Positions 1-42,314 of a stretch of 45,508 nucleotides of DNA are shown here, one piece after another. The stretch is from Eutypella sp. D-1 (taxonomy: Eukaryota; Ascomycota; Sordariomycetes; Xylariales; Diatrypaceae): positions 1 through 45,508 of the forward strand of contig JAJTTP010000042.1 of NCBI GenBank assembly GCA_023313575.1, given 5' to 3'. Below the pieces are notes generated by a model. It made no database searches. It was not told the DNA's origin and saw only the letters and a list, made by a program, of their open reading frames with translations. Positions within the stretch are counted from its first letter, which is position 1. Each line of letters starts with the position of its first letter. The position numbers and the translations under genes are program-made.

Positions 1-7738
<7,738 letters not shown>

Positions 7739-7748
<10 letters not shown>

Positions 7749-8731
7749 TTTCGATTATTCTAATTTGAGGCTTTAAAACTTACCTTTTACCTGAAGTAAT
7801 TTCTTTCAATATTACATTGTTCGAAACTTTTATATATCAATTTGAAATTCCGAACATAATTTTAGCAAGTGTTTTAGGATTATTCGCTAGATTAAGTCTA
7901 AAAGGAATAATTGAAGCTTTTTTTGAAGATTTTAGTTTAAAACAACCCTTAGATTCATCAGGAGTAAGCTCAGATTCATCCGGAGTAGGTAAGTCAATAC
8001 TATTTAAAGATAATGGAGAGGGTTCTTCTTCACAAGATCCAACAAAAGGTGGAGGTTGAGCTCCAAAAAAAGGTGGAGTAATAGGGCCAGAAGACTTTAC
8101 TTATGGTAGTGATACTGAATCTGAGTCTAGTCATAGCATGAATGAAGATAGTAATGCAACTGGTGATAACGTAGAAACTTTTGAGAAAAAAGTGGAAAAT
8201 ATGACTAGTAAAGATAGTGTTTCTTCTATTAAAGAAAAAATGAACAAGGCTTTAGAAACATATAAAGAATCTGGTTCTAATGTACCAGCTTTTCAACAAC
8301 AAGTAGCTGAGATCGAAAAAAAAATAGAAATATGTGATTCTAAAATATCTGAGTTAGAAAAAGAAGAACGAACTAAAGGTAAAGGAAAAGAAAAAGAAGT
8401 AAGAAACGTTTACGATCGAGTAATAGGACCAGGTGATCCGAATTTCCCTCGAACAATAGAGAATCCTAATTACCAAGCACCACCGGGGGGTCGTAGAAAA
8501 AAAGAAAACCTAAACCTACCACCAGAAGTGGTTAAAAATTACCTACGGGGCCTATCACCAGTGGCTGAAGAACCATCACAAGTAAGAAAAAAACTCAAAA
8601 GGGATCATGATCCTGATTATGCAGAAAACTCCGATGAGGAAGCGGAAGCGGTTCGTCGTGCTATAGAGGAATCAAAAAAAACCAAATCTGATAGGGAAGA
8701 TTCTTCTTCTAAGTCAGGTAAGGGAAGGTAA
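7739..8731 (+). CDS. Unknown ORF overlapping the cox1 stop in the -1 frame; two-helix anchor plus long polar domain
   Basis: ATG 7739 overlaps the cox1 TAA by ten bases; the ORF ends at TAA 8729-8731 (330 aa). Read through the TGA-Trp codons, residues 1-70 hold two hydrophobic segments (GLISIILIWGF; IILASVLGLFARL). A Ser/Gly/Asp-rich linker follows, then a charged helical stretch with coiled-coil look (8190-8400), a Pro-rich part and a Lys/Glu/Ser-rich end. I recognise no domain. Layout and some positions (I.LA...GL, EAFFEDF versus EGVFECF) match the ORF after atp6, which carries a Cox1 tail in front. It may be a separate gene coupled to cox1 translation, or a C-terminal extension of Cox1 made by a -1 shift. 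Confidence 0.75.
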
Positions 8732-12000: not shown

Positions 12001-15000
12001 CAGAAGAGGGTTTAATAAAAGTATTATCAATTAAAGAATCTATAAACTTAGGTTTATCAGATATAGTGAAATCTGCTTTCTTTGATATTGTTGCAGTAGA
12101 GAGACCTATTATTAGTAATCAAAAGATACTAGATCCCAATTGATTTGCTGGTTTTGCTAGCGGTGAAGGTTGTTTCCAGATTACATTAATTAAAACAACA
12201 AGTAATCAATCAGGTTACTGAGTTCAATTAAGTTTTCAACTTTCTCAACATACTCGTGATATAGAGTTAATTGATAGTATAAAAGAGTATTTGGATTGTG
12301 GTCAAACAACTGTATACGACAATCATAATTATATAAGGTATACTGTTTCTAATATTTCGGATATTATGGAAAAAGTTCTGCCTTTTTTATCGCCGAAGGC
12401 GCAGAAAAATATTTAATTGTAGGAGTAAAGTCCCAAGATTATGAAGACTTTAAACAAGTAGTGCTAATGGTGAAGGATAAAAAACATTGAACTTCTGACC
12501 CCCAGAGGGGGTTTAAAAAAAATCCAAACCTAAAATCGCTGAGGCGGAGCCTATCTAAAAAAAAAATCCAAAATAAATTCTTAAACGAATCTATTAAAGT
12601 ATTATTTCTAAATTTAGAATTTAGTTTTTGATTTTTTTTTAAGGCCTTCCTCCGTATCCCCATCGGGGATGGGGGCCCCTCCCTAGGGGAACGGAGGTTA
12701 GATATATATCAAATATGGTGTATTAAATTTAGATTTTATTTTGGATTTTTTTTTACCGGAGGCCGTGGATTTAATTTAATTAAAAAGATAAAGGGAGGTA
12801 TGAACAAATTAAGAAAAGATTAACGAATATTAGTTAATTTTTTTTTAATATATACTATTGGGTATTTTATTAAGTACTGTTTACTTTTTGCTGCATACTA
12901 AGGACTACATGCTACATATTTATGTACTTTATTTTAGGTGTTTTGTACTCCTACTACTGTTGAGTCCTTAGTGGTCTATTTAAAAATTTATATGTATTGA
13001 TAAATTTAACTACCGTGGTTATAACATTGGTTTTTGCATTATTAGGGTACGGAGTTATACCTTATGTTCATAGGGTGATATAGTCAAATTACGGGGAACT
13101 CCTAAAGCTTATAATACTAAACTAGGTACGAAGGTACTTGAGTGGCTGAATTAATTATTCAGGTATAGTTATAAGTTATAAGATGATCAGATGGTTAAGC
13201 TCTGGGAAATGGACAATCGCGGATCTAAGTCAAATAAAGGTGGCGCTTTATTTGTAAAAGAGCAACGAGCAGACGGCTATAGGTATTTTATAATATTATT
13301 GTAAATATTTAAGGTGTGCTCTAGTAGCTTAGAAATAAGTTCTCGTTAAATTGTATGCTAAGAATAACTACGATTCACCATTAATTGGAAAGATTGTTCG
13401 CAACTCTAATTCTTTAAAAATTAATTCTCGTCGTAATTATTCAACATTAAAAAATAAAATCGACGAACGCTTCGCACAAGTAGATCCTTGATTTATAACA
13501 GGGTTTACCGACGCTGAGGGTTGTTTTATGTGTAATATGGTAAAAAAACCTAAATATAAAGCAGGTTGAGAAATTCAACCCGTTTTCCAAATTAAACTCC
13601 ATGTTAAAGATTTTCCTGTTATATTAGGAATTCAACATAGTTTAGGAAATATTGGGACTGTAGAGAATAACCAATCTACATGTACTTTTAGAGTCAGAAA
13701 ATTGAAAGAGATAATAGAATTAATTAAATTTTTTGATAAGTATCCTTTAATTACTAGAAAAAAAGGAGATTATCTATTATTTAAACAAATTATTTCTATT
13801 ATCCAATTAAAAGAACATTTGACTACTAAAGGTTTACAACGAATTATTAATTTAAAAGCAACTTTAAATTTTGGTTTATCAAAAGAATTACAATTAATGT
13901 TTCCTGAAACTATTCCAGTTGCCCGTCCTTTAAGAGAACCTTGCGTAATTCCACATCCACAGTGATTAGCTGGATTTACTTCTGGTGAAGGTAATTTCTC
14001 TGTTTCTTTAGATAATGGTATTTTTAAGTCTCTTCTATTTAAAATTACTCAGCATGAAAAAGATGAGGTATTATTAATTGCAATTAAAGATTCTTTAAAT
14101 TGTGGGTCTTGTTATTTAAGAAAAAAAGAAAACACTATGGATTTTAAAGTTACTAAGTTTTCGGATATTACTGAAATTATAATACCTTTTTTTATTAATA
14201 ATCCAATATTAGGTGTAAAATCTTTGGATTTTAAAGATTGATGCTTAGTTTCGGAAATAGTCAAAAAAAGAGGACATAAACTAGAAGAAAATATTCTAAA
14301 AATCAAAGAAATTCAAAAGGCTATGAATAGGGGAAGAAGTTTTTAAATTTTTAATTATTACTTTTTATTTTTGTATGGACCTGGTTTAGCTCTTAGTGAT
14401 TTTAATTTAGGTATATTATATATGTTAGCTGTATCATCTTTAGCTACTTATGGAATTTTGCTCGCGGGGTTTTTTTTTTCTTCGGCCTCCTTTTTACATA
14501 CTAAAAATACTCAATACGAACACCCCAAATCCACTACTCAAGGAGTCTTTCCGAGCTTGCATATGAAATACGTAAGTGGATTTGGGTATCTATCGAATAT
14601 ATCAAAGCCAATATTTATTGCACTCCAAATACCAGTAAATTACAACACTTATCCCTCACAATATTTTAAGATATCTAGATGTTTTATTCACACAAATAAA
14701 GACAAGAATAATAGCAATAACAGTAATAATAAGGATGAGTTTATCCAAGATCTTTTCAAAGATAGGATTGCTCCAGTTATACCTTTCGATCGAGATTTAA
14801 TAAAAGGCTCTTGTTTAAACTATACTGATAAGTTATCTAAAGCAAAGTTCCTTAAAGAATGAGGTTCCAAAGCTGGAATTTACCTTATAGAATACAAATA
14901 TTATCCAAATATCTATTACATCGGGAGAACAAATCTATTCAAAAAAAGAATTTTTGAGCACTCAAAAGCAGAATCCCTTAGTAAATTCCACCTTTTCGTG

Positions 15001-24029: not shown

Positions 24030-24568
24030 GTACCTTATTGGTTAGCCCTGGTTTATCTATTGTAGCTGGAGGTGTTTTATATGATAGAACTGGTACTCGT
24101 AACATAGCTTATTACCGGGGAATTGCTCAATTACTTCCATTATGTTCCGTTTTATTTTTTATTTTATGTTTAGGTAATTGTGGAGCACCTCTTACATTAA
24201 ATTTTGTAGGAGGGTTCCTATCTCTTTATGGTGCATTTGAAAGACTACCCGTTCTAGGTGTTTTAGCCGTTTCTTATATGGTATTTTCAGCAGCATACTC
24301 AATTTTCTTATTTAATAGAGTAGCTTTTGGTTGTAGCTTTAGTGTATTCTTTCTCGAGGGTTTTGTAGATCTTACAAAACGAGAGTTCTCCATATTATTT
24401 ATTTTAGTATTCCTTACAGTATTATTTGGAATTTACCCTAGTGTAATATTGGATGGTCTTCATTTTGGAGTCTCAACTTTAATTTATAGTGCTGATTATT
24501 CAAATTCGTTTACTTATACAGGTTCTTCTTTCAAGTGGATAACCTTTCATTGGATAAGTTTAAATTAG
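24030..24568 (+). pseudogene. nad4: Duplicated, diverged nad4 3' exon
   Basis: VSPGLSIVAGGVLYDRTGTR through to the C-terminus corresponds to about the last 165 residues of the resident Nad4 and is open to the end. Most of it is clearly diverged, but about 100 bp around CCTCTTACATTAAATTTTGT (about 24172-24275) are almost identical to the resident gene. The conserved Glu of VGEF is Gly here. It has no 5' part in frame, and with the degenerate endonuclease before it, it looks like the downstream exon of a foreign intron-bearing nad4 allele. Confidence 0.85.
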
Positions 24569-26244: not shown

Positions 26245-26360
26245 AGTATAAGATCTTATAAAATAACAGCTTTTGTAACATCTATTCTAAATTTAGTTAT
26301 ATCTTTAGTAATATTTATATTATTTTATTTGAGCAGTAATCAATTTCAGTTTGTGCAAGG
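26245..26360 (+). pseudogene. nad4: Stray nad4 5' fragment
   Basis: SYKITAFVTSILNLVISLVIF and SSNQFQFV correspond to Nad4 residues about 33-70 (resident: ALVTSVLNLIVSLVIFILF). It lies 1.7 kb downstream of the duplicated nad4 3' exon, so the two ends are in reversed order. Confidence 0.85.
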
Positions 26361-27115: not shown

Positions 27116-27309
27116 TATTTCTGTACAATCAAGGGATTTTTAGAATATTATATTAAATATAAATGAAATTTATTAAGATTTATATTTCAATTAAAAGAAT
27201 TTAAAGTGTATAAATATATATTTAAATTTAGTTGTTGTAGTTATTATAACTACAGTATAGTTTAAATTTTTATACTTTATTAATTATTGAATACAGTTAT
27301 AATTTTATA
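27116..27309 (+). other. AT-rich spacer between atp8 and atp6
   Basis: It contains a hairpin around 27233-27258 (GTTGTAGTTATTATAACTACAG). No gene. Confidence 0.6.
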
Positions 27310-29277
27310 ATGGAAATATTAACCAACTTTTTTAATTTATACAGAGAAATAATTAGTCCTTTAAATCAATTTGAGATTAAAGATTTAATAAGTATGGACG
27401 CACCAATATTAGGCAATATACACTTATCAATAACTAATATAGGATTATACTTAATGATAGGAGCGTTTTTTATATTAGCTCTTAATCTTTTAAGTACAAA
27501 CTACAATAAATTAGTAGGTAATAATTGATCAATAAGTCAAGAAAGTCTTTTTGCAACTATTCTTAACATAGTTACAAATCAAATAAATCCCCAAAAGGGT
27601 CAAGTATTTTTCCCCTTTATTTATGCTTTGTTTGTATTTATTTTAATGAATAATCTTATAGGGTTAATACCTTATAGTTTTGCTGCAACTAGCCACTTTG
27701 CTTTGACTTTTTCATTCAGTTTTACTATTGTTTTAGGGGCAACAATATTAGGTTTTTCACAACATGGACTTAAATTCTTTTCTCTATTGGTTCCCGCAGG
27801 TTGTCCTTTGCCTTTATTCCCTTTATTGGTTTTAATAGAACTTATAAGTTATCTAGCCAGATGTATATCTCTTGGTTTAAGATTAGGGGCCAACATAAAA
27901 AAGTGAAAGTAGGTAGTCACTATTATTGTGTATAAGGGCCAAATTCCGGGGAAGCCCTAATAGCTCTAATAACTAAAGATAAAAGGAATACTTCTTATCT
28001 GGCCTCATTAATGTCTGAGGGTATAGTAACATCATTAGAGATTCTAGTAATAGGAATGGGTAATCGTGGATCTAAATCAGTAATATGTGGAAATATTGCT
28101 GTAAAAGAGCAACGAGTAGACGGTTCTTCAGATTCTAGGAATTTAGTTTCTGTATGGTGTACTCTAGTCGCCGGGGAGAGCCGGTTCTTGGGCGAAATTA
28201 AGTAATTCAAGATTAAAGTTATCACAATAGCCTATCCTTTATTGTTATGATTTCTTCTGTTTTTTATTCCTCTATCGAGTCGATTATTCTTTCTAATATC
28301 GAAACAGGGAAGGGAGAAGAATTTTCTTCTATGATACGGGCTGCGGAGTTTTTAGGTGTTCATATGACTACTGTTAAGAGGTATTTAATTAATAATAAGC
28401 CATACAAAGGTTGTATGATTACTAAAGCTAATTCTAGTTTAGATTCCTCTTCTATCTCTAGTCTAACTAATTCAAGACAGGCTGTATTATTAACTGACAG
28501 TGTTTCAGGAATTACCAAACAATTCTCTACAATGAGAGTCGCATACCAATTTTTGGAAATATCTCATAAACGACTCTTAAATTATTTAAAAAATAACGAG
28601 TCTTCGTCTGCAGATGGACAAGTTAGCACCATAAAAGGGTACATTATAACCAAGCTAGACTCAGTTAGACGAGGGTCTAAAGCTGTAGAAGTTACTAATA
28701 TTCTTACAAATGAAGTAATTAAGTATTCTTCGAGAAGTTCAGCAGGTGAAGCTTTGGGTATTTCTCAGCCGAGTATTTCTGTTGATTTAAGTAGGAAACG
28801 TACTACTCCATTTAAAGGTATTTACCTTTTTAATTTAAGTTATGGTTAATATATTATTCGGGTGAGCCAGCCTAGTATATCTTTATACTTGAAAGAAAAT
28901 AGAGTTAAACCTTTTAAAGGAAAATATATGTTCAAATTAGTAAACTAGATTACTGTGGTATACATCGCTCCGGATAACTTTACCAGATGGGGTATGAATT
29001 GCAGAGATAAGAATAAAAGTTTACTTATTTTTGTCATTAACATAATTAGAGGATTAATTTGTTGACACGAATGTCAGGCCATATGCTTTTAAGTATATTA
29101 TCAGGTTTTACTTACAATATAATGAGTTCAGGTATTGTTTTTTTTTTTTTTGGTTTGGTCCCTTTGTCATTTATTATAGCTTTTTCGGGTTTAGAATTTG
29201 GGATTGCTTTTATTCAGGCTCAAGTGTTTATTATATTAAGTTGTTCATATATAAAAGATGGATTAGATCTTCATTAA
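27310..29277 (+). CDS. atp6: ATP synthase subunit 6, exons about 27310-27897 and 29062-29277
   Basis: The proton-channel subunit a of F0. Exon 1 encodes MEILTNFFNLYREI... through LARCISLGLRLGANI, including the essential Arg of LGLRL. Exon 2 encodes LTRMSGHMLLSILSGFTYN...SYIKDGLDLH (TAA 29275-29277). Total about 267 aa, normal for the family. The intron sits directly behind the essential Arg region. The exact 5' splice base is uncertain (AAC AT or AAC ATA). Fourteen T in a row at 29138-29151 encode a Phe run. The frame one base back is open from here into the following ORF. Confidence 0.93.
28247..28849 (+). CDS. Intron ORF made of NUMOD1-like DNA-binding repeats, no nuclease domain seen
   Basis: A 200-aa frame with three similar units of about 55 residues: FSSMIRAAEFLGVHMTTVKR, FSTMRVAYQFLEISHKRLL and YSSRSSAGEALGISQPSISV. 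Each has a helix-turn-helix look and is followed by KPYKGCM, STIKGYI or TPFKGIY. This is the C-terminal DNA-binding module of many GIY-YIG and LAGLIDADG enzymes. I find neither catalytic motif in the 200 residues or directly upstream. It may be a stripped-down remnant that still binds DNA, or a partner for an enzyme in trans. Confidence 0.75.
   Translation: MISSVFYSSIESIILSNIETGKGEEFSSMIRAAEFLGVHMTTVKRYLINNKPYKGCMITKANSSLDSSSISSLTNSRQAVLLTDSVSGITKQFSTMRVAYQFLEISHKRLLNYLKNNESSSADGQVSTIKGYIITKLDSVRRGSKAVEVTNILTNEVIKYSSRSSAGEALGISQPSISVDLSRKRTTPFKGIYLFNLSYG
28858..28948 (+). pseudogene. Remnant of a second NUMOD1-like C-terminus
   Basis: RVSQPSISLYLKENRVKPFKGKYMF followed by TAG parallels the end of the preceding ORF (GISQPSISVDLSRKRTTPFKG). 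An older 3' end left behind after replacement. Confidence 0.75.
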
Positions 29278-29336
29278 TTGATATTTATAATACAATAAAA
29301 AGTTGTCTTATTTACTTTTATGAAAAAATCGCTAAA

Positions 29337-30362
29337 CTTAATTTAGAGTGAGGTAAAACAAGCCCTCCTAAACCTCATGCCTTTGTAAGTTGTCCTTTAC
29401 AAAGTAGTTTTTTTTGGAATGTTATAAACAAATTTAGTGCTAAATTTTCATGGGTTAAATTAATTATTATGGCATTAGTAGGGATATTATCTTTCTATTT
29501 TAAAAATGAACTTACTGATTTACTACTTAGTTTAAGCTCTGTGGGCGTTTCACTCAATGAAGAAATTTTGGCAATTTTTATGGGTTTGATTAGTACATTA
29601 GTTTATTTATTCCGTAACTTTTTAAGTTCAATGCTTGAAGGTGTTTTTGAATGTTTTAATATTCCAATAAATGGTGGCCATGTTGGTAAAATAAAAATAG
29701 ATTCTAACATTAAAACTCATCTTGAAGTAAGAACAGATAAAGCAACTTCAGGTTCAAATACTGTACCAGATTCTCCAGAGATAGTGTCTAACTTGAAAAG
29801 GGAAATGGATGATTTAAGTGCTGCAAATCAACGGTTTTTAGATGTCTTCAAGTTATGAAATGAAGTACCAACATTTGAAGGTCTTGACTGAAACAAACAT
29901 AAAGATGCTATGGTGTTTATAAAATTACTTCAAGATCAGGCCGATATGGTTAGTAAGTGATTTATAAATAGGATGACTTGAACAGATACTGTGCTTAAGG
30001 ATATAAAAATGTCTGGGGCTACTATAAATGAAATAGAGGAGTTACATCGTAAAGTTAGGGATAAACAAGATGAATATTTCGATAAAGTATCTGCATTATC
30101 AGATAAAGAGGGACGAGGTGTTGAAAGACATGCAAAAGAATTCTTTTCTTTAGCTAATGGTTTTCGTAATGACGTTAACAAGTTATTAAATAAGGGGGAA
30201 AATATAATGCATGACGGTATTAGAAAAAGTTCTTTATATAAAGATCCCGAAATAAAAAAAATATTTAATCAATATTATCCTGAATTCAAAAAAGCATTTA
30301 TCGAAGAGGATACGAAATTAAGAAAAAAATGCTCAGAATTTATAAATGCTAAAAAAGATTAA
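29337..30362 (+). CDS. Unknown ORF after atp6: Cox1-like tail, two hydrophobic segments, long helical domain
   Basis: Read in code 4, frame 0 gives LEWGKTSPPKPHAFVSCPLQSS from 29340, clearly the Cox1 C-terminal tail. Then come hydrophobic segments near LIIMALVGILSFYF and EEILAIFMGLISTLVYLF, and about 220 polar, helix-rich residues with coiled-coil look, ending KCSEFINAKKD at TAA 30360-30362. The only ATG before the bulk is 29469 (297 aa). The frame is open much further upstream, overlapping atp6 in its -1 frame, so the start is unclear. The polar domain is not recognised. Several TGA-Trp codons and no stops argue for function. Confidence 0.75.
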
Positions 30363-30390
30363 TTCACAAGAAGTAACTTTGCCTTCATTC

Positions 30391-30419
30391 TAGGTAGATT
30401 TATAAGGTAAATCTACCTA
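30391..30419 (+). repeat. 12-bp hairpin with 5-nt loop
   Basis: TAGGTAGATTTA, loop TAAGG, TAAATCTACCTA, behind the CCTTCATTC motif. Same family as 16738 and 25698. Confidence 0.8.
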
Positions 30420-30446
30420 AGGTCAATATGAAATATAATTGGTATC

Positions 30447-30848
30447 ATGGCTGTTATATTGGTAGTTGTAGGCTTAATTTTAGGTGCTTTTAATATGGAA
30501 CCTGGTAAAAGGGTACCACACCAAACGGATCCCAAGTATAAGCCGGTATCATCTTCTTCATCTGGCCCTAGGAATATGGATTTACTTCCATTGGTACCGA
30601 AGGGAGGTCCACGCTTACCTGTTCTTGAACCACCTGTTCCAGATGTTGGTCCTCCTAAAAAAATGGAAGACTATAAAAATGGAAGACTATGAAGAAGGTG
30701 GTGTCACTTATTTGGGGTAATTTACTTAGACGTTCTCATTCGACTAATTCTTTATCTTGGTAGCTTAAGGGTAAGGCTACGTCTACGCCTATGCTTCGCG
30801 GATCCAACTGATAATGGGTTCTATTCTACTAATGATTTAAAGTCTTAA
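30447..30848 (+). CDS. Small unknown ORF with N-terminal membrane helix and Pro-rich region
   Basis: 133 aa in code 4. MAVILVVVGLILGAF is a membrane helix or signal anchor. A Pro/Ser-rich stretch (KYKPVSSSSSGPRN, RLPVLEPPVPDVGPPKK) follows. A 17-nt tandem duplication (ATGGAAGACTATAAAA, then ATGGAAGACTATG...) near 30664-30695 shifts the frame. With one copy, the protein would end after an acidic EDYEEGGVTYLG at 30720. The present C-terminus runs through a GC-rich repeat patch (30765-30800), so it is probably not the original one. Confidence 0.5.
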
Positions 30849-31020
30849 AAAGTGTTTGGAGTCTACCCAATACTTTAAGAATGAAATAAAACCTTTTTTT
30901 GTTCTGCATATTTTCTGAAATAAGGTCATATGTCCGTCCTAATTTCTAAGGCGCCGTTATACTGAGCGAAATTACATATTATATAATTCAAGATTTATAA
31001 TCTAAATTTGTTGAAAACAA
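30849..31020 (+). other. Spacer before the fusion ORF
   Basis: AT-rich with a GC patch (AGGCGCCG). No gene seen. Confidence 0.6.
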
Positions 31021-32676
31021 ATGACTAACAATTACATATTTAGTGGGGTTAAAAAAAAAATAAAGAAATTGATACAAGTAGCAAAAATAATAGGTACAGG
31101 TTTAGCTACAACTGGTTTGATTGGAGCTGGAGTTGGAATAGGTGTAGTTTTTGGTGCATTAATTTTGGGATTTGTATTCAGTGAAGCCACTGGATTATTT
31201 GCCTTAATGATGGCTTTTTTGCTTTTAAGTGTTGCTTTATTTAAACAGAGTTATCTTAGTTTAGAGTGAGCTTTAAATAGTCCACCTAAACCACATATTT
31301 TTAATTTATCATTGGAAAGTTCTTCTTTTTCCATGATGGGCCTTTTTGATGAAAGTAAGCCATATGCTGTAGAAGGAAAAGGTATTTACATTATTACAAA
31401 GGATGGTAGGAAGGTTATAGACGGGTGTTCAGGTGCTGGTGTATCTAGTATTGGTCACAGAAACCGCAGAGTGATTGATGCTATTACAAAACAGAACAAA
31501 ACGGGTATAAGTTATCTGTCTTCATCTTGGGGTAGTAGAGTGGTCGATGATTTCTGTAAGTTTATCATAAGAGGTACAGGAGGTAAAATGGTCAGGGTAT
31601 ACATCGTTAACTCAGGGTCTGAGTCAACCGAAGTTGCAATGAAGCTAGCTTATTCTTATCATCGCGAAAATAATGACCCTAGACGGATCAATATCATTTC
31701 AAGGGTGGGTTCTTATCATGGGGCTACCTTGTTACCTTTGACTATATCAGGGTTTTATGCCCGTAAACATTATTACAATGCAATACTAAATAAAGATAAT
31801 TTTTATTACGTTTCCGCTTGTTACGCTTACCGTCAAAAATTAAAAGGGGAGACAGATGTGGCTTTCGTGTATAGAAAAGCAGCAGAACTGGAGGCAAAAA
31901 TCCTGGAGATAGGTCCTGGTACAGTTATGGCCTTTATCCTCGAGCCTGTGGTAGGTGCAGCATTAGGATGTGCTCCTTTTGTTCCGGGTTATTTAAAGGC
32001 TATGCGGGAGGTATGTGATAAATATGGTGTACTTTTAATATATGATGAAGTTATGTGTGGTATGGGTAGGACTGGTACTATGCATGCATGACAAGCAGAA
32101 GGTGTTGGGCCTGATATTCAGACTAATGCTAAAGGGCTTGGTGGAGGATACGTCCCTATAGCGATGGTGTTAGCCTCTAAAAAGGTTATTGATGTTATAA
32201 ATAAAGGTAGTGGGGAGTTTGTCCACGGGCAGACCTATGAAGGAATGCCATCCACTGTTGCAGGTGCTCTCGAAGTTCAGAGAGTCATAAAAGATAATAA
32301 ATTAGTAAAAAATGTATCCAAACAGGGGGCATATTTAGGATGATGTCTTAGAGCTGTTTTAAGTAATCACCCTAATGTTGGAGACATTAGGGGACTGGGT
32401 CTTTTCTGAGGTATAGAGTTTGTAGAAAATAAAGGGACTAAAAAACCCTTTGACCCAAAACTTGAAATTGCTAAAAGAATTGTTGACTTGGCCTTCTCAC
32501 CTGAATTTAACCTAGCAATTTACTATGGGGGATTTGCAGGATATTATATCCATATAGATCGTATTATAATTGCTCCTCCATTTATTATCAAGAAAAAGGA
32601 GGTGGATTGTATAGTGGAAATTCTATCAAAAGTAATTGAGAGAGTTTTCAATGAAGTTGGCACTAAGAGGATATAG
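31021..32676 (+). CDS. Fusion ORF: atp9-like helices + Cox1 tail + class III aminotransferase
   Basis: One 551-aa frame (code 4). Residues about 20-75 match ATP synthase subunit 9 ([40 protein letters not shown]) with the proton-binding Glu, but the polar loop (RNP-type) between the helices is missing. Residues 79-94 are [15 protein letters not shown], the Cox1 tail. From about 105 on is a complete PLP-dependent class III aminotransferase: NSGSES (197-202), SYHG (231-234), Asp342 in [12 protein letters not shown] for the pyridine N, Lys371 in [10 protein letters not shown] for the Schiff base, and HGQTYEG (402-408) for phosphate. Substrate unknown. TGA-Trp at residues 83, 357, 441 and 463 shows adaptation to the mitochondrial code. 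By eye it is GC-richer and uses CTC/CGC/CGG-type codons more than its neighbours, suggesting transfer from a nuclear or bacterial source. Confidence 0.88.
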
Positions 32677-33444
32677 CGCAATAGTTTAGAAAACATGTTT
32701 ATATTGACCTTGGGGTCAAGATAATTAAGGTTTAACTATATGATTTATACATGATGAAAAAAAAGTAAAAAATAACCCTTAATTACATAAATAGGTGAAA
32801 TGATTTTATTTATATTATTAAGTATATTAGTTAAAATCTTATATACTATTTTAGAATAAAAAGTTTTAGAGATAATAATAAACTAAATTTGAGAGAATTT
32901 AAGTAAAGTTATAGTAGACAACGTGTCCGTATATATAATTACTTTAAGCGAAAGGTTTAGGTTTTAAATAGAAAATATAATAAATTAAGCCTTCGGTTCA
33001 GTATGTACTCTTCACGTTATTATTTTTGGAATAAAATTGCATAGGGTTCCTTAAATTTTTGTGCATGCGAAGTTAGCGCCGTCACACTGAGCGAAAAAAA
33101 AAGTTTTTTGATTAAAAATTACTACATAAACAGTGATGAGAACATATTAACCTAAAAAAATTAATAAATGAAGGATGGATAGTTTTATCTGAACCTATGA
33201 TTTAAAAGCGAGCTTTGCAAAGCCTACATAAGACTATAATTTAGAGAGATAATTGCCTAGAAATAGCTTGGTATTATCCGAAACTTTTTAAGCCAGGAAC
33301 TTTTGGTACAGTTTTCATAAAATAATTCCAAAAGTTGTTTATACTATAGTTTTTTGAGAAAACCCTAAATTTATAGTGATGGGTTTGCCATCAATATTTT
33401 ACAGATGGATTTACCATCAATATTTTACAATAAATAAAATTCTA
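32677..33444 (+). other. AT-rich region between the fusion ORF and rns
   Basis: No coding frame recognised. It contains a hairpin (GACCTTGGGGTCAAG, 32706-32720), a GC patch GTGCATGCGAAGTTAGCG (about 33061, also at 40743) and a tandem GATGG[GA]TTT[GA]CCATCAATATTTTACA pair (about 33378-33430). It may include the rRNA promoter and leader. Confidence 0.5.
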
Positions 33445-33654
33445 TTATATAGGTGAGTTTGGTGATGGCTCTGATTGAACGCTGTCTAAATGCTTGACAC
33501 ATGCTAATCGGACGTTTAATTTAAATAATATTTTTATTAAAAGTGGTGTACAGGTGAGTATAGATATCCGGCCTACCTTAAAGTGAGGGAAAGATCCCTC
33601 ATAATAAAAAAAAGGGATAAAAAAAAAAATTATAAAAAATGATATAACAGACTA

Positions 33655-33750
33655 TCAGAAGCATGAAATGATATAACAGACTATCATGAAATGATATAAC
33701 AGACTATCATAATTCACAGACTATCATAATTCACAGACTATCATAATTCT
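33655..33750 (+). repeat. Two nested tandem repeats in an rns variable region
   Basis: A unit ATGAAATGATATAACAGACT of about 24 bp occurs about three times, followed by about three copies of a 17-bp unit ATAATTCACAGACTATC. The shared part is ACAGACTATC. Confidence 0.9.
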
Positions 33751-35255
33751 CTTAAGATCTGGTGTGCGAAGCGGGTTGTTTTTACATTAAACGACGTGCA
33801 TCCGCTAACCATGAGAGAAAAAATGATACCCGCTTTAAGAGGACTTAAGGAGTTATCGTCGGGATAGGTAGTTGTTAAGGTTATTACTTAACAAGCCTTA
33901 ATTCTCGTAGTCGAAGCTGAAAGGTTGATCGACCACACTGGGTCTGAAAAAACCCCAGGGCAAGCGAGTACAGCAGTGGGGGATTTTGGTCACTTGTCCG
34001 CGCGACAGAACTGGCAACTTAGAGGAATGGTAGCTTCTCTAATAAGTTAGGGGGCTACAAATTGACATATCAAATAAAGTTCTAAATGTGTAATTGATAA
34101 TGACGATATGCAGATTTATGCCTTGACTAATTACGTGCCAGCAGTCGCGGTAATACGTAAGAGGCTAGTGTTATTCATCTGAAATAGGTTTAAAGGGTAC
34201 TTAGACGGTAGATATTTGCCTTTTAAAAGGTACATTATCGACTAGAGTTTTATGCGAGGAGGTCGTACTTAAGGTGTAGAGATTAAATTTGTTGATACCT
34301 CGGGGACTGATAAAGGCGAAGGCAACCTCTTATGTAAAAACTGACGTTAAAGGACGAAGGCACAGAGAACAAACAGGATTAGACACCCCAGTAGTCTTTG
34401 CAGAGAATGATGAATGCTATAGGTTAGGTTAACTTGGCCTATAAATGAAAGTGTAAGCATTTCACCTCAAGAGTAATGTGGCAACGCAGGAACTGAAAAA
34501 ACGTGAGATTATTTTTATCCTAGATAGAATTATTTAGGATTAGCCACAAAAAAATATAAATTAATAATATTCCAGTGTTGGTTCGATTCCAACTCTATAA
34601 ATTTAATTTTTGTTTAGATTATTTTAAGATATTATTGAAATAACTAATAATTAGCTTAATTTTATATTTATTATTACTTTCAGTTTACGATAGTATACCT
34701 GAAAATAGATAAAAGTCCAGAACTAGAATTCACTAGTATAAAAGTGAAGCTAACTTTTAAGGGTTCCTATAATAGGATGGATCGGATCTTTGGTACTACT
34801 GAAATATAATTAAAAATTAAGCAAATTTTACTATGTGTAGTTTAGAAGTTATACTATAGCAGTCATTAATCTATGAAATAGTGAACGTAATTGGCCTCGG
34901 GGAGTTTGGGCATAAAACTTGACGAGGGGTAGGAACGCATACGACCTAGGACAAAGGTAATAGACAAGAAATCCGGAGCTGATATATTAAATTTCGAAAA
35001 TCAATGGAAAAATAGATATTGCAGGGAGCGTTACGGAACCTGCATTTATACTTCGCCGTAGAGAGTAATATACTACCATTGACCAGGTAGATTCTATAAG
35101 TTATCAGAAGAAGATGGCGAGGTCTCAACTGGTAGTAAAATTCTTCAGCTATCTCAATAAATAAAAAAAAACCTAGATTAGGGAAACCGACAGTTATATT
35201 TATAATAAAGAATATTTTTATTTTAAATAATTATTTTTTACCTTTTCTTGGAAAT

Positions 35256-35726
35256 ATGGCTTTCATCAGTAAAAAGGGTAAAGATTTTTTAAGTTTTAAA
35301 ATAATCTGTAATGCAGTGTATAAAGGTTCACATAAAATAGAAGAAATTAGATCATTAATTTTAAGATTAACTTATAATATGAATAATTTTAGATTGTCTA
35401 ATAATACAAAACCCGTCGTATGATTAAGTGAAGAGGAAATTGATAAAATTATTAATGCCGAAGCTATTTTTGAATATCTTAGCGATGGTTGTATTATAGA
35501 CAAAAGAACTAATAAACCTTTATCTTCTTTTAGAAATTGTATTTATGAGATAACATTATCAAGTGGTGAAATTATATTAGTTGATACACTAAAAGAAACT
35601 TTAAGTAAGGTAAACGTTAGTTTTAGAAGTTTAAAAAAATCATTAGATAACAGTGAATCTGTAAAACTTGAAAGTTTTGAAGTAAAGAGAATTCCTATCT
35701 TTATGTCCTATAATTTAAATAAATAA
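35256..35726 (+). CDS. C-terminal remnant of a homing endonuclease in the rns intron
   Basis: 156 aa, ATG 35256 to TAA 35724-35726. EEIRSLILRLTYNMNNFRLS is the end of a LAGLIDADG second domain (compare the MNNNRLSTN end in nad6 and MNNSRLTTH near nad4). A NUMOD-like part follows (ILVDTLKETLSKVNVSFRSLKKSLD). No LAGLIDADG motif is present, so it cannot be a whole enzyme. Confidence 0.6.
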
Positions 35727-35953
35727 AAATAAATTGAGGGAAGGTTACAGCCTTACAATTTATAGGATTTATAGAAAAATTCGGTGAAACGGTTAATGAC
35801 ATCCTGGTAGGAGACCGTCGGCAGTTGTAAATGTCGCTACAGACTAGATCACCGGGGTTAGGCTGAAATGTCTGTCCAAATGTATAGTCGGGTTCTGTAA
35901 TGAGTATGATATCATAAAGGGGAAGGATAATCCAAGTTTTATTTATCAAGTGA

Positions 35954-36045
35954 GTCGCGCCTTATCTTTGATCGGCGCAACGACGCTTCGCTAACCCTCC
36001 GGGTGTAGTACGCTTCGCTACTCGTAAAATAAAAACTACATACAG
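35954..36045 (+). repeat. GC-rich repeat near the 3' end of the rns intron
   Basis: GTCGCGCCTTATCTTTGATC...AACGAC (35954-35984) matches 9908-9938; further GC patches CTTCGCTAACCCTCCGGG follow. It sits between the intron P7/P9 region and the 3' splice site. Confidence 0.7.
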
Positions 36046-36748
36046 TGGATAGTTATCATCACGGTAATAATAACCCTTAATTAATCAGAACTGAATCACT
36101 AGACCGTTTCTGACACCAGCAGTGAAGTATGTTATTTAATTCGATGACCCGCGAAAAACCTTACCACAATTTGAATATAATTTGCAGAGAAAAAAAACCG
36201 TTCTTTTGGGTTTTTTTGAACTAATTAGTCAAGCTAAGAAATTAGTAGAACAAGTGTTGCACGGCTGTTTTCAGTTAATGTTGTGAAACTGCGGATCCGT
36301 CCGTGTAATTAACGAATACCCCGGCTTTATTTGTAAGATTACTAAAATAGAGCATTTTCTAGCCCGCTACAATGGTTAGGACAAAAGGGAATAAGACAAG
36401 TCATCATGGCCTTAATATTGTGGGCTATAGACGTGCCACGTAGTCCTAGACAAAGAGAAGCAAAACTGCGAAGTCAAGCGAACCTCAGCAAAATAGGATA
36501 AAATATGGAAATGGATTGTAGCCTGAAATTCGGCTGCATGAATAAGAAATTGCTAGTAATCGTGAATCACCACGTCACGGTGAATAATACTTTGGATTGG
36601 TACTAATCACTCGTCACATGCTGAAATGAGTTAGTGCAATAAGTTTGCTCTCTTATTATAAGTAAGTAAATGATAGGATTTAGATGTTATAGTAGGATTC
36701 TTCGTATGCGCGATTCGGATTAGTGTTAAGTCGAAATACGGTTCGTGT

Positions 36749-36862
36749 AGTGGAAGTTGCACGGGATTCATAAATTTTAACCAAAAAAATAATAAAAAAA
36801 AAGCCTGGGAGAAGGAAATAAATTGTATGAATTTTATTTTGGTTCAAATCCAAAACAGGTAA
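36749..36862 (+). repeat. Direct repeat, left copy: rns 3' end, tRNA-like stretch
   Basis: TAGTGGAAGTTGCACGGGAT...AAATTTTAACCAAAAA...AAGCCTG is repeated at 37949-38002. The stretch 36804-36862 has matching ends (GCCTG...CAGG) and a T-arm-like GGTTCAAATCC but is too short for a tRNA. Confidence 0.8.
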
Positions 36863-37931
36863 ATGAAGAGATTAATTAATAAAAATATAATGATATGCGA
36901 ATTTGATGTCTTTTACGCAAGAAATAAAGGCAAATTATTTAGGTTATTGGCTTCGCGTAGTAGTATTATACGGTGTATTAGTAACGTAACATTACAGATT
37001 CGTCCTCTAGCGGTTTATTTGGATTTAGCGGACAAAAAAAAACGATCTTTAGCGATAATAGGAAAAAATCGGGGGTTTATCGTTGAGTGAATACGGTGAA
37101 TGGGTCTACATATATAGGAAGTGGAACAGATTTGACTAGGAGATTCCGGGATTATTTAGCACCAGAGTGATTAATTAAATAAGTTAAAAAGAATCGTAGT
37201 ATTATTTATAGATCTTTATTAAAACATGGTTATAATAATTTCCGTCTTGAGATTTTAGAATATTGTGAATCATCTAAAGTTGTAGAAAGGGAACAATATT
37301 ATTTGGATAAATTAAAGCCAACATATAATATTTGTAATGTGGCTGGTTCATCGTTAGGTCGTGTAATTAGAGAGGAGACACGATTAAAATTGCGAAGAGC
37401 TTGGTTAGTTAGATTATATAAAGATAGTCAAAGCAAATCAAGCCTAAGAGATTTTTCTTTAAAATACTTGGCAGGAAAAGTTGATGAATTAGAATCAAGT
37501 TTTTCAAGATTAACCAAAAAGTTTGATAATTTAATCACCGAAAAACCAGAATTTAAGCAATCAGCTGAAACTCGTTTAAAAAAATTAGTTTCCTCTCCTA
37601 CATTATATCCTGTTTTAATTATAGGTTTGAAAACAGGAGAAAGTATTAAGTACCCTTCGCTAAGGCGGAGCCTATCTAAAAAAAAAAATCCAAAATAAAT
37701 TCTTAAACGAATCTATTAAAGTATTATTTCTAAATTTAGAATTTAGTTTTTGATTTTTTTTTAAGGCCTTCCTCCGTATCCCCATCGGGGATGGGGGCCC
37801 CCTCCCTAGGGGAACGGAGGTTAAGAAGAGCAGCGGATGCTTTAGGAATTAGTCCTACTAATATTAGGAATAGGTTATCAGGTAAAACAACTAAAGCATA
37901 TAAAGGAAGATACGGGTTTAAGCTGGGCTAG
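36863..37931 (+). pseudogene. GIY-YIG endonuclease gene with nonsense codon, frameshift and repeat insertion
   Basis: The module SGVYRWVNTVNGSTYIGSGT with Arg in LTRRF is at about 37066-37145. An in-frame TAA follows (LIK*VKKNR, near 37178), then LLKHGYNNFRLEILEYCE and the Glu helix VVEREQYYLDKLKPTYN. A coiled region and a NUMOD-like tail follow. The tail SIKYPS...LRRAADALGISPTNIRNRL is split by the repeat core (37656-37821). The gene ends at TAG 37929-37931. The N-terminus (MKRLINKNIMICEFDVFYARNKG) has a counterpart at about 38067-38130 in the downstream duplicate. Confidence 0.8.
37656..37821 (+). repeat. GC-rich repeat core, copy D (minimal form)
   Basis: It runs from TCGCTAAGGCGGAGCC to AACGGAGG and lacks the left and right modules of copies A and C. 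The host codons on both sides (TACCCTTC / TTAAGAAGAGCAGCG) rejoin sensibly, so it shows the size of the mobile core, about 165 bp. Confidence 0.85.
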
Positions 37932-37948
37932 TAACCCTCCTAGATGGT

Positions 37949-38135
37949 AGTGGAAGTTGCACGGGATTCATAAATTTTAACCAAAAATAATAAAAAAGCC
38001 TGTAGCAAGGTGCTTATGTTCTGGACCTTAATACTTTTTATTTCTGGTTCAAATCCGGAGCAGGTTTATGAAAAATAGAGATTTAAGGATTAAATGGGAA
38101 TTTCACACCTTTTACGCAATAAATAAGGGGTCGCT
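37949..38135 (+). repeat. Direct repeat, right copy: duplicate rns 3' end and downstream sequence
   Basis: The same rns 3' end as at 36749, followed by a tRNA-like 72-nt stretch and a frame similar to the endonuclease N-terminus (FHTFYAINKG against FDVFYARNKG). The endonuclease cassette lies between the two copies. Confidence 0.8.
37996..38067 (+). tRNA. tRNA-like sequence, identity not assigned
   Basis: AAGCCTG and CAGGTTT form a 7-bp acceptor, CTGG-TTCAAAT-CCGG is a good T arm, and a short D arm GCA..TGC is possible. Total length is 72 nt. I cannot draw a clean anticodon stem, so it may be degenerate. A shortened relative lies at 36804. Confidence 0.3.
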
Positions 38136-38155
38136 TCGCTAATCCAAAGGATAAT

Positions 38156-38174
38156 GGGGGGGGGGGGGGGGGGG
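38156..38174 (+). repeat. Run of 19 G
   Basis: A homopolymer G tract in an AT-rich genome. The true length is probably uncertain in the assembly. Confidence 0.85.
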
Positions 38175-38660
38175 TGCTTTTAGCCTTTACTATCCCTCCG
38201 GTAAAATTTTCCCAGGAGGAGCTGTAACATTTTATGTTAATAATTATTGTGTTTCCGAGGTTACTAGTTTATGATATATTATATCTAGTATCCTTCCTCA
38301 TTTTTATGTACATCGTCTAATTTCAAATAAACTAGTGGATTACTTGCTATTCAGATATATAGTACTAATTATGCAGCGACCCTGGGCCATTTAATTGCGT
38401 AGGCTCCGCCTTACCCATATCCCAGATCCTTCGGTGGCTACGCCTACAGAAGCGATCCATAAGGTAAATTTTCCCCAGGGAAGCTGCTTTACCCAGGAAA
38501 ATGTAAAAATTTTCTTGATGTGCTTAATATCCGGGTCATTGAATAAACATTCAGATAAAGGAACTATTTATTTTAAATTTTTTACATTTTCACAAGATTT
38601 ACTACCTAATGTTGAACATAAATTGGCAGCTTTAGATGAATTAGCTCAAAAATTGTAGAT
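38175..38660 (+). pseudogene. Endonuclease scraps interrupted by GC-rich repeat R2
   Basis: EVTSLWYIISSILPHFYVHRL and NKLVDYLLFRYIVL (38248-38370) are a LAGLIDADG domain end. R2 follows at 38396-38478. A frame of 50 residues (FLMCLISGSLNKHSDKG...) then ends at TAG 38658; I do not recognise that part. Confidence 0.5.
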
Positions 38661-38743
38661 TAGACGTGAAGGAAAAGTCTAAAAAAAGTTAAAATTGAAT
38701 AAACAAACTTAAAGCAAGGTACGATGTATCTTGCTTAAGGAAA

Positions 38744-38827
38744 GGAGACTCCCTTTATGGTAAGAAGGGCTGAGCTGTAAACTCAGTAGTTTAAAGCGGC
38801 TTTAAGAGTTCGAATCTCTTGTCTCCT
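38744..38827 (+). tRNA. trnY(gua): tRNA-Tyr (GUA)
   Basis: Acceptor GGAGAC/GTCTCC, anticodon arm CTGAG-CTGTAAA-CTCAG, a long variable arm, and T arm with TTCGAAT. A hairpin AAGCAAG...CTTGCTT precedes it (38711-38735). Confidence 0.92.
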
Positions 38828-38835
38828 AAGGATAA

Positions 38836-38909
38836 GCCCCTATAGCTCAATTGGTAGAGCGCGGTACTGTTAATACCGTTTCGTAGATGTTCGAGCCATC
38901 TTAGGGGCG
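38836..38909 (+). tRNA. trnN(guu): tRNA-Asn (GUU)
   Basis: Acceptor GCCCCTA/TAGGGGC, D arm GCTC..GAGC, anticodon arm CGGTA-CTGTTAA-TACCG, and T arm with TTCGAGC. Eight bases after trnY. Confidence 0.92.
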
Positions 38910-38919
38910 AGGCTATACA

Positions 38920-39500
38920 TCAACAGCGGTTTAGTACAGATAAAGTAACTAATTGTGTAATTCGACCGTTTGTGGGTGTTCGAGTCATCTTGGTAACGGT
39001 ACTAACTTTTTTGTGGCTAAAAAAAAATTAATCAATGTGAGCGAAGCATCATAGGCTCCGCCTTACCCAATGGAAAGGGTATTAGGTCTTTTGGGCGCGA
39101 GGTCTGATTTAACTCCATTTAAATAAAGCAAGGGGTCGCTTCTGTAGGCGTAGCCACCGAAGGATCTGGGACTAAGAACCAAAAAATCCGCTTCGCATAG
39201 TGATACATCGAATAAAGGTCTTCCATAACCATCTGGTAAAATTTTACCAGGAGCGAAGCGTCTTATATTTTACTTTTTATTTTTTTTTAACCGCTCATAA
39301 ATTCTTGTGCAGGGCGTACTACTATTTATGACTTGTTTGAACATATATATTAGTTGGTTTTTTTATAATTAATATCTTAATTAAGATATTAATTAGTTAT
39401 GTTGTCAGGATAGTTGTTAATAATTCGAAAAGAAGGATAATGATAGATGTTCGATTCATCTTAGGTACGCAAAAATTCTAGATATGTAAAAAGGATTTAA
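38920..39500 (+). other. Spacer with tRNA scraps and GC-rich repeats
   Basis: T-arm-like copies of trnN (GGTGTTCGAGTCATCTT near 38975; AGATGTTCGATTCATCTTAG near 39447). R2 pieces lie at 39050-39170 (one inverted), and the R4 element at 39187-39290 (CCGCTTCGCATAG...CCAGGAGCGAAGCG), with a second copy at 41555-41662. No gene. Confidence 0.65.
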
Positions 39501-42159: not shown

Positions 42160-42197
42160 TCGTATTGCTTTCATTTTAAAACTTAATATACTTTTTT

Positions 42198-42268
42198 AAG
42201 AGTATAGTTTAAAGGTAAAATAGGGAGCTTCAACCTCCAAATTCTCAGTTCAAATCTGAGTACTCTTG
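42198..42268 (+). tRNA. trnW(uca): tRNA-Trp (UCA), reads UGA
   Basis: Acceptor AAGAGTA/TACTCTT, anticodon arm GGGAG-CTTCAAC-CTCCA, T arm CTCAG-TTCAAAT-CTGAG. The UCA anticodon agrees with the TGA-Trp codons in all genes here. A decayed copy is in nad1 intron 5. Confidence 0.93.
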
Positions 42269-42314
42269 TAATTCATCCTTTACGAGGGTAAAGATAGTTT
42301 AAAAAATAAAAATT

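Follow-up and report, generated by a model that had tools for sequence, protein, structure and literature searches.

A fusion ORF between atp6 and rns

We analyzed a 45,508-nt stretch of DNA from Eutypella sp. D-1 (the window, to which all coordinates without a contig name refer). It is contig C37 of a 48.5-Mb genome, in which C33, C36, C38, and C57 are other mtDNA contigs that overlap C37 or each other. On the forward strand, between atp6 and rns, lies an ORF at 31021-32676, here named AT1, which translates with genetic code 4 into 551 residues followed by a stop. The original prediction had read this 551-codon frame as an ATP9-like part, a Cox1 tail, and an aminotransferase. Translation, profile, and sequence matches bear this out: the frame runs from a piece of ATP9 without its polar loop through the C-terminal tail of Cox1 into a complete class III aminotransferase. 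The predicted use of TGA as Trp was found as well, at four of the five Trp codons (residues 83, 357, 441, and 463; the fifth is TGG). A tRNA that ARAGORN names tRNA-SeC(tca), at 42197-42269, is probably the tRNA-Trp that reads TGA in this code.

Upstream of AT1 are the last exon of atp6 (29071-29277, + strand) and orfX (29241-30362, + strand), an accessory ORF without a Pfam family that overlaps this exon out of frame and carries an in-frame Cox1 tail of its own (29331-29405). Its downstream neighbor is rns, which is interrupted and gives two Rfam matches (33447-36778, + strand). No intron was matched around AT1: at Rfam gathering scores, the window has a single intron match, at 7110-7374, although degenerate introns could escape such detection. 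Contigs C33, C37, and C57 carry this ORF without a single difference, and the same is true of the surrounding 3.4-kb stretch (30001-33400). Moreover, a public protein from another source (P0002; public proteins are given P numbers throughout) is 99% identical to AT1 and shares its joins and its loop deletion, but not its start. Searching viral contigs with AT1 returned two pattern matches and no relative.

The enzyme part (residues 105-551; 31333-32673, + strand) starts with ATG ATG and was delimited by Pfam, alignment, structure model, and Foldseek. Pfam Aminotran_3 (PF00202) matches residues 116-539 with E=1.5e-78 and 264.7 bits, against a curated cut-off of 30.5, and positions 13-403 of the 403 in the profile are covered. 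All three of the predicted key residues are present, Asp342 in YDEVMCG, Lys371 in NAKGLGG, and Thr405 in HGQTYEG, and none of their columns varies across the 9 rows aligned. The AlphaFold model of AT1 has a mean pLDDT of 75.5 and a pTM of 0.74; between residues 111 and 550, 35 of the 44 full ten-residue blocks reach at least 80, and low confidence is found in the leader and in a few short stretches, including 403-405, which holds Thr405. The solved folds closest to this model are omega-transaminases, such as the top Foldseek match 5kqw (TM 0.84 by target length, 34% identity). AT1 did not reach the equivalog cut-off of NCBIfam NF005685 (PRK07483), scoring 469.1 bits vs. 485. By sequence and fold, the enzyme is probably an omega-aminotransferase, a predicted activity.

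A second aminotransferase and the origin of the family

The same mtDNA encodes a second aminotransferase, AT2, located between atp9 and cox2 (C36:23934-25268). Its open frame (C36:22845-25277) runs in the -1 frame through all of atp9, includes a hydrophobic N-terminal part, and has no ATG within its first 216 codons; in P0121, a relative of AT2, an ATP9 start is fused in frame. AT1 and AT2 are identical at 226 of 437 residues and have diverged by dN 0.40 and dS 1.57. The resulting dN/dS of ~0.25, a mostly synonymous divergence, points to purifying selection on the pair. The GC content is 0.39 both in the enzyme part of AT1 and in AT2, compared with 0.295 in nad4 and 0.305 in the window.

The description of the mtDNA of Annulohypoxylon stygium, another member of the Xylariales, places a class III aminotransferase gene between atp9 and cox2, where AT2 is found here, and an AAT_I fragment at the site of AT1, between atp6 and rns (PMC6140425). 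Unlike the fragment described there, AT1 is intact and fused to pieces of ATP9 and Cox1; the main text of that paper uses neither “fused” nor “fusion” (PMC6140425). In its atp6-rns position, its mitochondrial code, and its fungal lineage, AT1 fits a Xylariales mitochondrial aminotransferase locus. The lineage was read from the TSR1 protein of this genome, for which the closest matches with an organism name are Diatrype stigma (85%) and Monosporascus (84%), placing the fungus in the Xylariales, probably in the Diatrypaceae. Together with two homologues named as Apiospora mitochondrial proteins among the best 120 of 7103 matches, the A. stygium genes as described (PMC6140425) contradict the earlier statement that no class III aminotransferase was known from fungal mtDNA.

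Of 124 domains (from P0001-P0121, P0124, P0131, and AT2), the 115 that are longer than 400 residues were used to build a tree, drawn with midpoint rooting and without a bacterial outgroup, with SH-aLRT as its only support measure; its nuclear and mitochondrial labels rest mostly on amino acid composition. AT1 falls into a nine-row clade with P0002, P0003, P0004, P0005, P0038, P0055, P0100, and P0114 (SH-aLRT 98), the members of which are of mitochondrial-type composition. A 33-row clade (31 rows labeled nuclear by composition; support 99) is nested among the mitochondrial-type rows instead of standing apart from them. Given the midpoint tree and the composition labels, this family has probably undergone more than one transfer between mitochondrion and nucleus, and the nesting of the nuclear clade suggests that the direction of transfer may even have been from mitochondrion to nucleus. 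Nuclear-type relatives do exist in fungi, for instance P0010 (57%), encoded on a 1.98-Mb contig, and AT1 has a 42% match on the 6.2-Mb contig C1 of its own genome. From the genera, we take all 39 of the 39 organism-named homologues among the best 120 of 7103 matches to be fungal, and a bacterial donor finds no support among those matches. A recent transfer from an outside donor, as first proposed, finds no support in these fungal names or in the mitochondrial-type clade of AT1. Of the original interpretation, the fusion ORF with TGA as Trp and the intact enzyme stand; the absence of such genes from fungal mtDNA does not, and the recent transfer is unsupported.

The leader is a copied and shortened atp9

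A 737-bp stretch reaching into the start of AT1 (30434-31170, + strand) is 99% identical to the atp9 locus at C36:22211-22947, which excludes a chance origin of the leader. The copy takes in the 587 bp ahead of the start codon, including an ORF at 30447-30848 (+ strand; its C36 copy extends further upstream), and continues through the start codon and an N-terminal extension to the middle of ATP9. On C36, part of the atp9 5′ region recurs further upstream. The N-terminal extension of AT1 has 16 residues (31021-31068, + strand) and is near-identical at the atp9 locus, and the ATG that opens MIQVAKIIG in the true atp9 (C36:22846-23070) is TTG in AT1. Next comes the ATP9-derived segment (residues 17-72; 31069-31236, + strand), which differs from the true atp9 by a single large change, an in-frame loss of 54 bp, or 18 polar-loop residues, between two direct copies of ATTTTGGGA; after this gap, AT1 resumes with the second ATP9 helix. 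The polar loop is absent, and AT1 stays below the Pfam ATP-synt_C cut-off (13.6 bits vs. 24), so its leader is a derivative of ATP9 and no ATP9.

The hydropathy of AT1 (KD19) exceeds 1.6 in a single unbroken run of residue centers 35-70, in agreement with the hydrophobic ATP9-derived part that had been predicted ahead of an intact enzyme. This run may plausibly tether AT1 to the membrane. In normal ATP9, both termini are on the intermembrane-space side, and loss of the polar loop could alter the side of the membrane where the enzyme ends up. In 72 codons, atp9 and the AT1 leader differ by 4 synonymous and 7 non-synonymous changes (ratio 0.51), too few to demonstrate selection on the leader. 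Since the same genome also has a nuclear exon for ATP9, divergence of the atp9 copies in the mtDNA may be tolerated, and the mitochondrial gene may be non-essential.

A Cox1 tail joins leader and enzyme

Residues 76-104 of AT1 (31246-31332, + strand) are a Cox1 C-terminal tail, matched with E=8e-9 in a search of the mitochondrial contigs; the ATP9 and Cox1 matches reported here cover C33, C36, and C37, with C38 and C57 being duplicates. The native tail is at 7602-7685, within the last exon of cox1 (7410-7745, + strand), which also holds a short extension, and the tail inside orfX is the third copy. In a core of 13 codons, chosen after viewing the alignment, native cox1 and the AT1 tail show 8 synonymous and 0 non-synonymous differences, and over all 30 aligned codons they show 16.7 synonymous and 16.3 non-synonymous ones. 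The core fits constraint on the AT1 tail; between the AT1 and orfX tails the ratio is near 0.7, a value that does not demonstrate constraint. In view of the synonymous saturation relative to native cox1, the tail could derive from the cox1 of another fungus.

Within the AT1 clade, BLAST places a Cox1 tail ahead of the aminotransferase in AT1/P0002, P0003, P0055, and P0100. Among the 17 chosen proteins on which pairwise E-values for leader and tail matches were calculated, BLAST detected no Cox1 tail in P0004 of this clade or in P0019, which is not a clade member; by eye both have at most a degenerate one. P0005, P0038, and P0114 of the AT1 clade start right at the aminotransferase domain. In P0071, immediately outside this clade, the domain is preceded by a long N-terminal stretch that lacks a Cox1 tail.

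Similar joins recur in public proteins

Among proteins of 303-964 residues, a search with the leader of AT1 (residues 1-110) gave 35 with E no higher than 10, of which 23 had an E of 1e-3 or below. We read all 35: apart from P0002, 20 begin like ATP9 and then continue with other sequence, 18 of these having an E of 1e-3 or below. The other 15 are P0002, two intron-type proteins (an endonuclease and a reverse transcriptase), two other ATP9 arrangements, nine Cox1 proteins, several with long extensions, and one protein composed of Nad4, a Cox1 tail, and other sequence. A Cox1 tail follows ATP9 in 8 of the 35, P0002 included. The cargos behind ATP9-type starts include aminotransferases and a GNAT acetyltransferase (P0152), which had an E of only 3.5 in the leader search yet is 56% identical to atp9 over 72 residues.

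By BLAST, 11 public proteins, made up of the 8 with ATP9 and a Cox1 tail plus P0003, P0055, and P0153, combine a leader (ATP9, ATP6, or Nad4), a Cox1 tail, and a differing cargo. P0003 has an aminotransferase 73% identical to that of AT1, preceded by an ATP6 end and a Cox1 tail; its start is 75% identical over 51 residues to the last exon of atp6 in the window. P0055 has ATP9 (60% over 72 residues) and a Cox1 tail before its aminotransferase. A homologue of orfX, P0127 (51% over 118 residues), begins with ATP9 (78% over 74 residues) and a Cox1 tail, whereas orfX follows atp6 here. Given that both the AT1 relatives and the orfX/P0127 pair differ in their front piece, the leader has been exchanged for two unrelated cargos, each time with a Cox1 tail at the joint. 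As conceptual translations, some of them possibly of unspliced introns, the public fusions over-represent in-frame cases and document recurrence but not its rate.

A peptidase-like motif ahead of other accessory domains

The motif R-x-[FYL]-[SA]-[ST] has the pattern of the MPP/Icp55 matrix-peptidase site, and in the nuclear ATP9 of the same genome RAYSS closes the presequence. AT2 has RDYST between the atp9 region and the membrane part, and the same enzyme domain is preceded by RSFST in P0121, RCFST in P0131, and RSYST in P0031; among the 62 family proteins with at least 25 residues ahead of the aminotransferase domain, 3 have the motif there (AT2 not counted). All ATP9 + Cox1-tail proteins, AT1 included, lack it.

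We counted the motif in the ORFs of at least 150 aa in this mtDNA, within the 60 residues before the first homing-endonuclease motif. It is present in 11 of 39 ORFs (9 LAGLIDADG and 2 GIY-YIG), 11-35 residues away; in 5000 shuffles, the number of motif-bearing ORFs averaged 0.46 and never exceeded 5. Of the arginines, 11 of 103 upstream head the motif vs. 1 of 429 downstream, and the residues with the next highest upstream fractions are Gln (2/66) and His (1/34). The 11 ORFs are at 13339 (where the motif reads RNYST) and 5907 of the window, at 27205, 39151, 41272, 59322, and 72977 of C33, and at 8395, 14365, 27424, and 28663 of C36; a shorter frame at 11415 (142 aa) has RSFST as well. These statistics describe one genome, and since the endonuclease ORFs are mutually related, the 11 cases are not 11 independent events.

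Other features of this mtDNA

AT2, orfX, and an accessory ORF that overlaps the end of cox1 (7706-8731, + strand; weakly similar to the orfX family) are each in the -1 frame of the preceding gene, and the open part of each contains slippery heptamers (at the cox1 end, A AAA AAG). Under synonymous resampling, an open overlap had P = 0.12, 0.07, and 0.59 for AT2, orfX, and the ORF after cox1, respectively, and a heptamer within the overlap had P = 0.38, 0.23, and 0.69. With these values not significant, we set aside a programmed -1 frameshift from core gene into cargo as a guess.

Core-gene pieces and extra genes were also observed at other places. The window contains an extra copy of the nad4 3′ end at 24041-24493 and an inner nad4 piece at 26251-26358, and the 3′ part of nad3 is duplicated at C36:19454-19690. 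A repeat of up to 336 bp with 94-99% identity, possibly a mobile element, is found at 3370-3705, 12449-12784, and 37657-37823, and the first two copies each end an ORF with the same peptide. C36 carries a GNAT acetyltransferase ORF (37733-38992; Pfam PF13302, E=5.6e-29) and, by eye, a second GNAT-like frame on the minus strand at 1385. Finally, nad5 (C36:49476-51020) runs in frame into a long charged C-terminal extension, and the public proteins P0016 and P0036 combine nad5-type and aminotransferase domains.

Discussion

Judged from its sequence, AT1 belongs to a type of accessory gene that Pezizomycotina mtDNA was already known to carry, and its frame now opens in a borrowed leader. What is unusual is the leader-tail-cargo architecture, not the presence of an aminotransferase in fungal mtDNA. 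On balance, we lean toward the explanation that AT1 is a real accessory enzyme that borrows the expression signals of atp9 and is made as a membrane-anchored protein; its translation, anchoring, and activity we infer. The copied atp9 5′ region would supply transcription and translational activation, the ATP9 helices would enter the inner membrane during synthesis, and the aminotransferase would fold behind the Cox1 tail as an anchored matrix enzyme, perhaps to be cut free later. The tail would persist as a recombination hinge shared by leaders and cargos, as a matrix-exposed spacer, or as a processing site.

Alternatively, a real enzyme could start at its own ATG ATG (31333-31338), with the ATP9 and Cox1 sequence ahead of it being recombination debris that is in frame by chance. 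Relatives without a leader begin near this MM (P0005 with MGSFNKK, P0025 with MDSPTSFSLGR), and copied ends or pieces of core genes do occur elsewhere in this mtDNA (nad4 at 24041-24493 and 26251; nad3 on C36), which lends this explanation some weight. We nevertheless consider it somewhat unlikely, because the frame is kept across two junctions and a 54-bp deletion, because a Cox1 tail precedes the domain in four independent members of the clade (AT1, P0003, P0055, and P0100, by BLAST), and because all 8 changes that separate the 13-codon tail core from native cox1 are synonymous. That the whole ORF is a functionless, decaying insertion has little chance of being right: A. stygium is described as keeping a mere fragment between atp6 and rns (PMC6140425), but AT1 has 551 open codons, retained catalytic residues, and a dN/dS of ~0.25 relative to AT2, and its relatives P0003 and P0004 are still long and intact.

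The recent arrival of a bacterial or nuclear gene, the explanation first offered for this ORF, might account for the GC content of AT1's enzyme part and AT2, which at 0.39 is higher than that of nad4 (0.295) and of the window (0.305), and for the nuclear-type fungal relatives (P0010 at 57%; the 42% match on C1). It is very unlikely all the same, in that the closest relatives among the best 120 of 7103 matches are of mitochondrial type and the 33-row, mostly nuclear clade is nested among mitochondrial-type rows. Least credible of all, in our assessment, is an assembly artefact or a nuclear copy of mtDNA. This mtDNA is repeat-rich, but AT1 and its 3.4-kb surroundings are identical on three contigs, P0002 from another source matches at 99% with the same joins and loop deletion, and TGA stands at 4 of the 5 Trp codons.

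Related arrangements are known from other mitochondrial genomes. Plant male-sterility-type chimeric ORFs, such as Petunia pcf, join atp9 and cox pieces to other sequence, often with copied 5′ regions. In AT1, by contrast, the cargo is a conserved enzyme, and the gene is not linked to a known phenotype. It is widely accepted that fused intron ORFs gain the expression signals of the host gene, an idea called “core creep” (PMC3073962, PMC10448965). In the intron-ORF fusions reported from Leptographium (PMC10448965) and Erysiphe necator (PMC8260586), an accessory protein fused in frame at its N terminus relies on a core gene's start and expression signals, as proposed for AT1; unlike those fusions, AT1 shows no intron, and its leader is a copied and altered gene from elsewhere, joined to a piece of a second gene. 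By analogy, AT1 may have gained core-gene expression signals without an intron. In the fused cox1-cox2 frames reported from Pleosporales, the Cox1 C terminus likewise enters another protein in frame (PMC5626475, PMC6221350), except that two complete core genes are joined there, whereas in AT1 only the Cox1 tail is used, ahead of an accessory cargo. A review calls the processing of fusion proteins made from organelle intron ORFs an “obvious gap” (PMC3073962). In a literature search that excluded most subscription journals, we found no paper on ATP9/Cox1-tail leaders of accessory genes and none on peptidase motifs in mtDNA-encoded proteins.

These features could be parts of a modular way of expressing extra genes in fungal mtDNA, consisting of a core-gene leader (ATP9, ATP6, Nad4, or Cox1), a Cox1-tail hinge, and an exchangeable cargo, with the products inserted into the membrane and many of them cut by the nuclear-encoded MPP/Icp55 at an mtDNA-encoded R-x-[FYL]-[SA]-[ST]. 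AT1 would represent the Cox1-tail type and AT2, with its RDYST, the peptidase type. We put this model forward tentatively and regard it, taken as a whole, as unlikely to hold in full.

With atp9 as the source, AT1 as the recipient, and a further aminotransferase behind atp9 all in one genome, leader and enzyme appear as separable modules. The recurrence of such joins before unrelated extra genes suggests how these genes may get expressed, and sequences annotated as ATP9- or Cox1-like in fungal mtDNA may be the leaders of other proteins.
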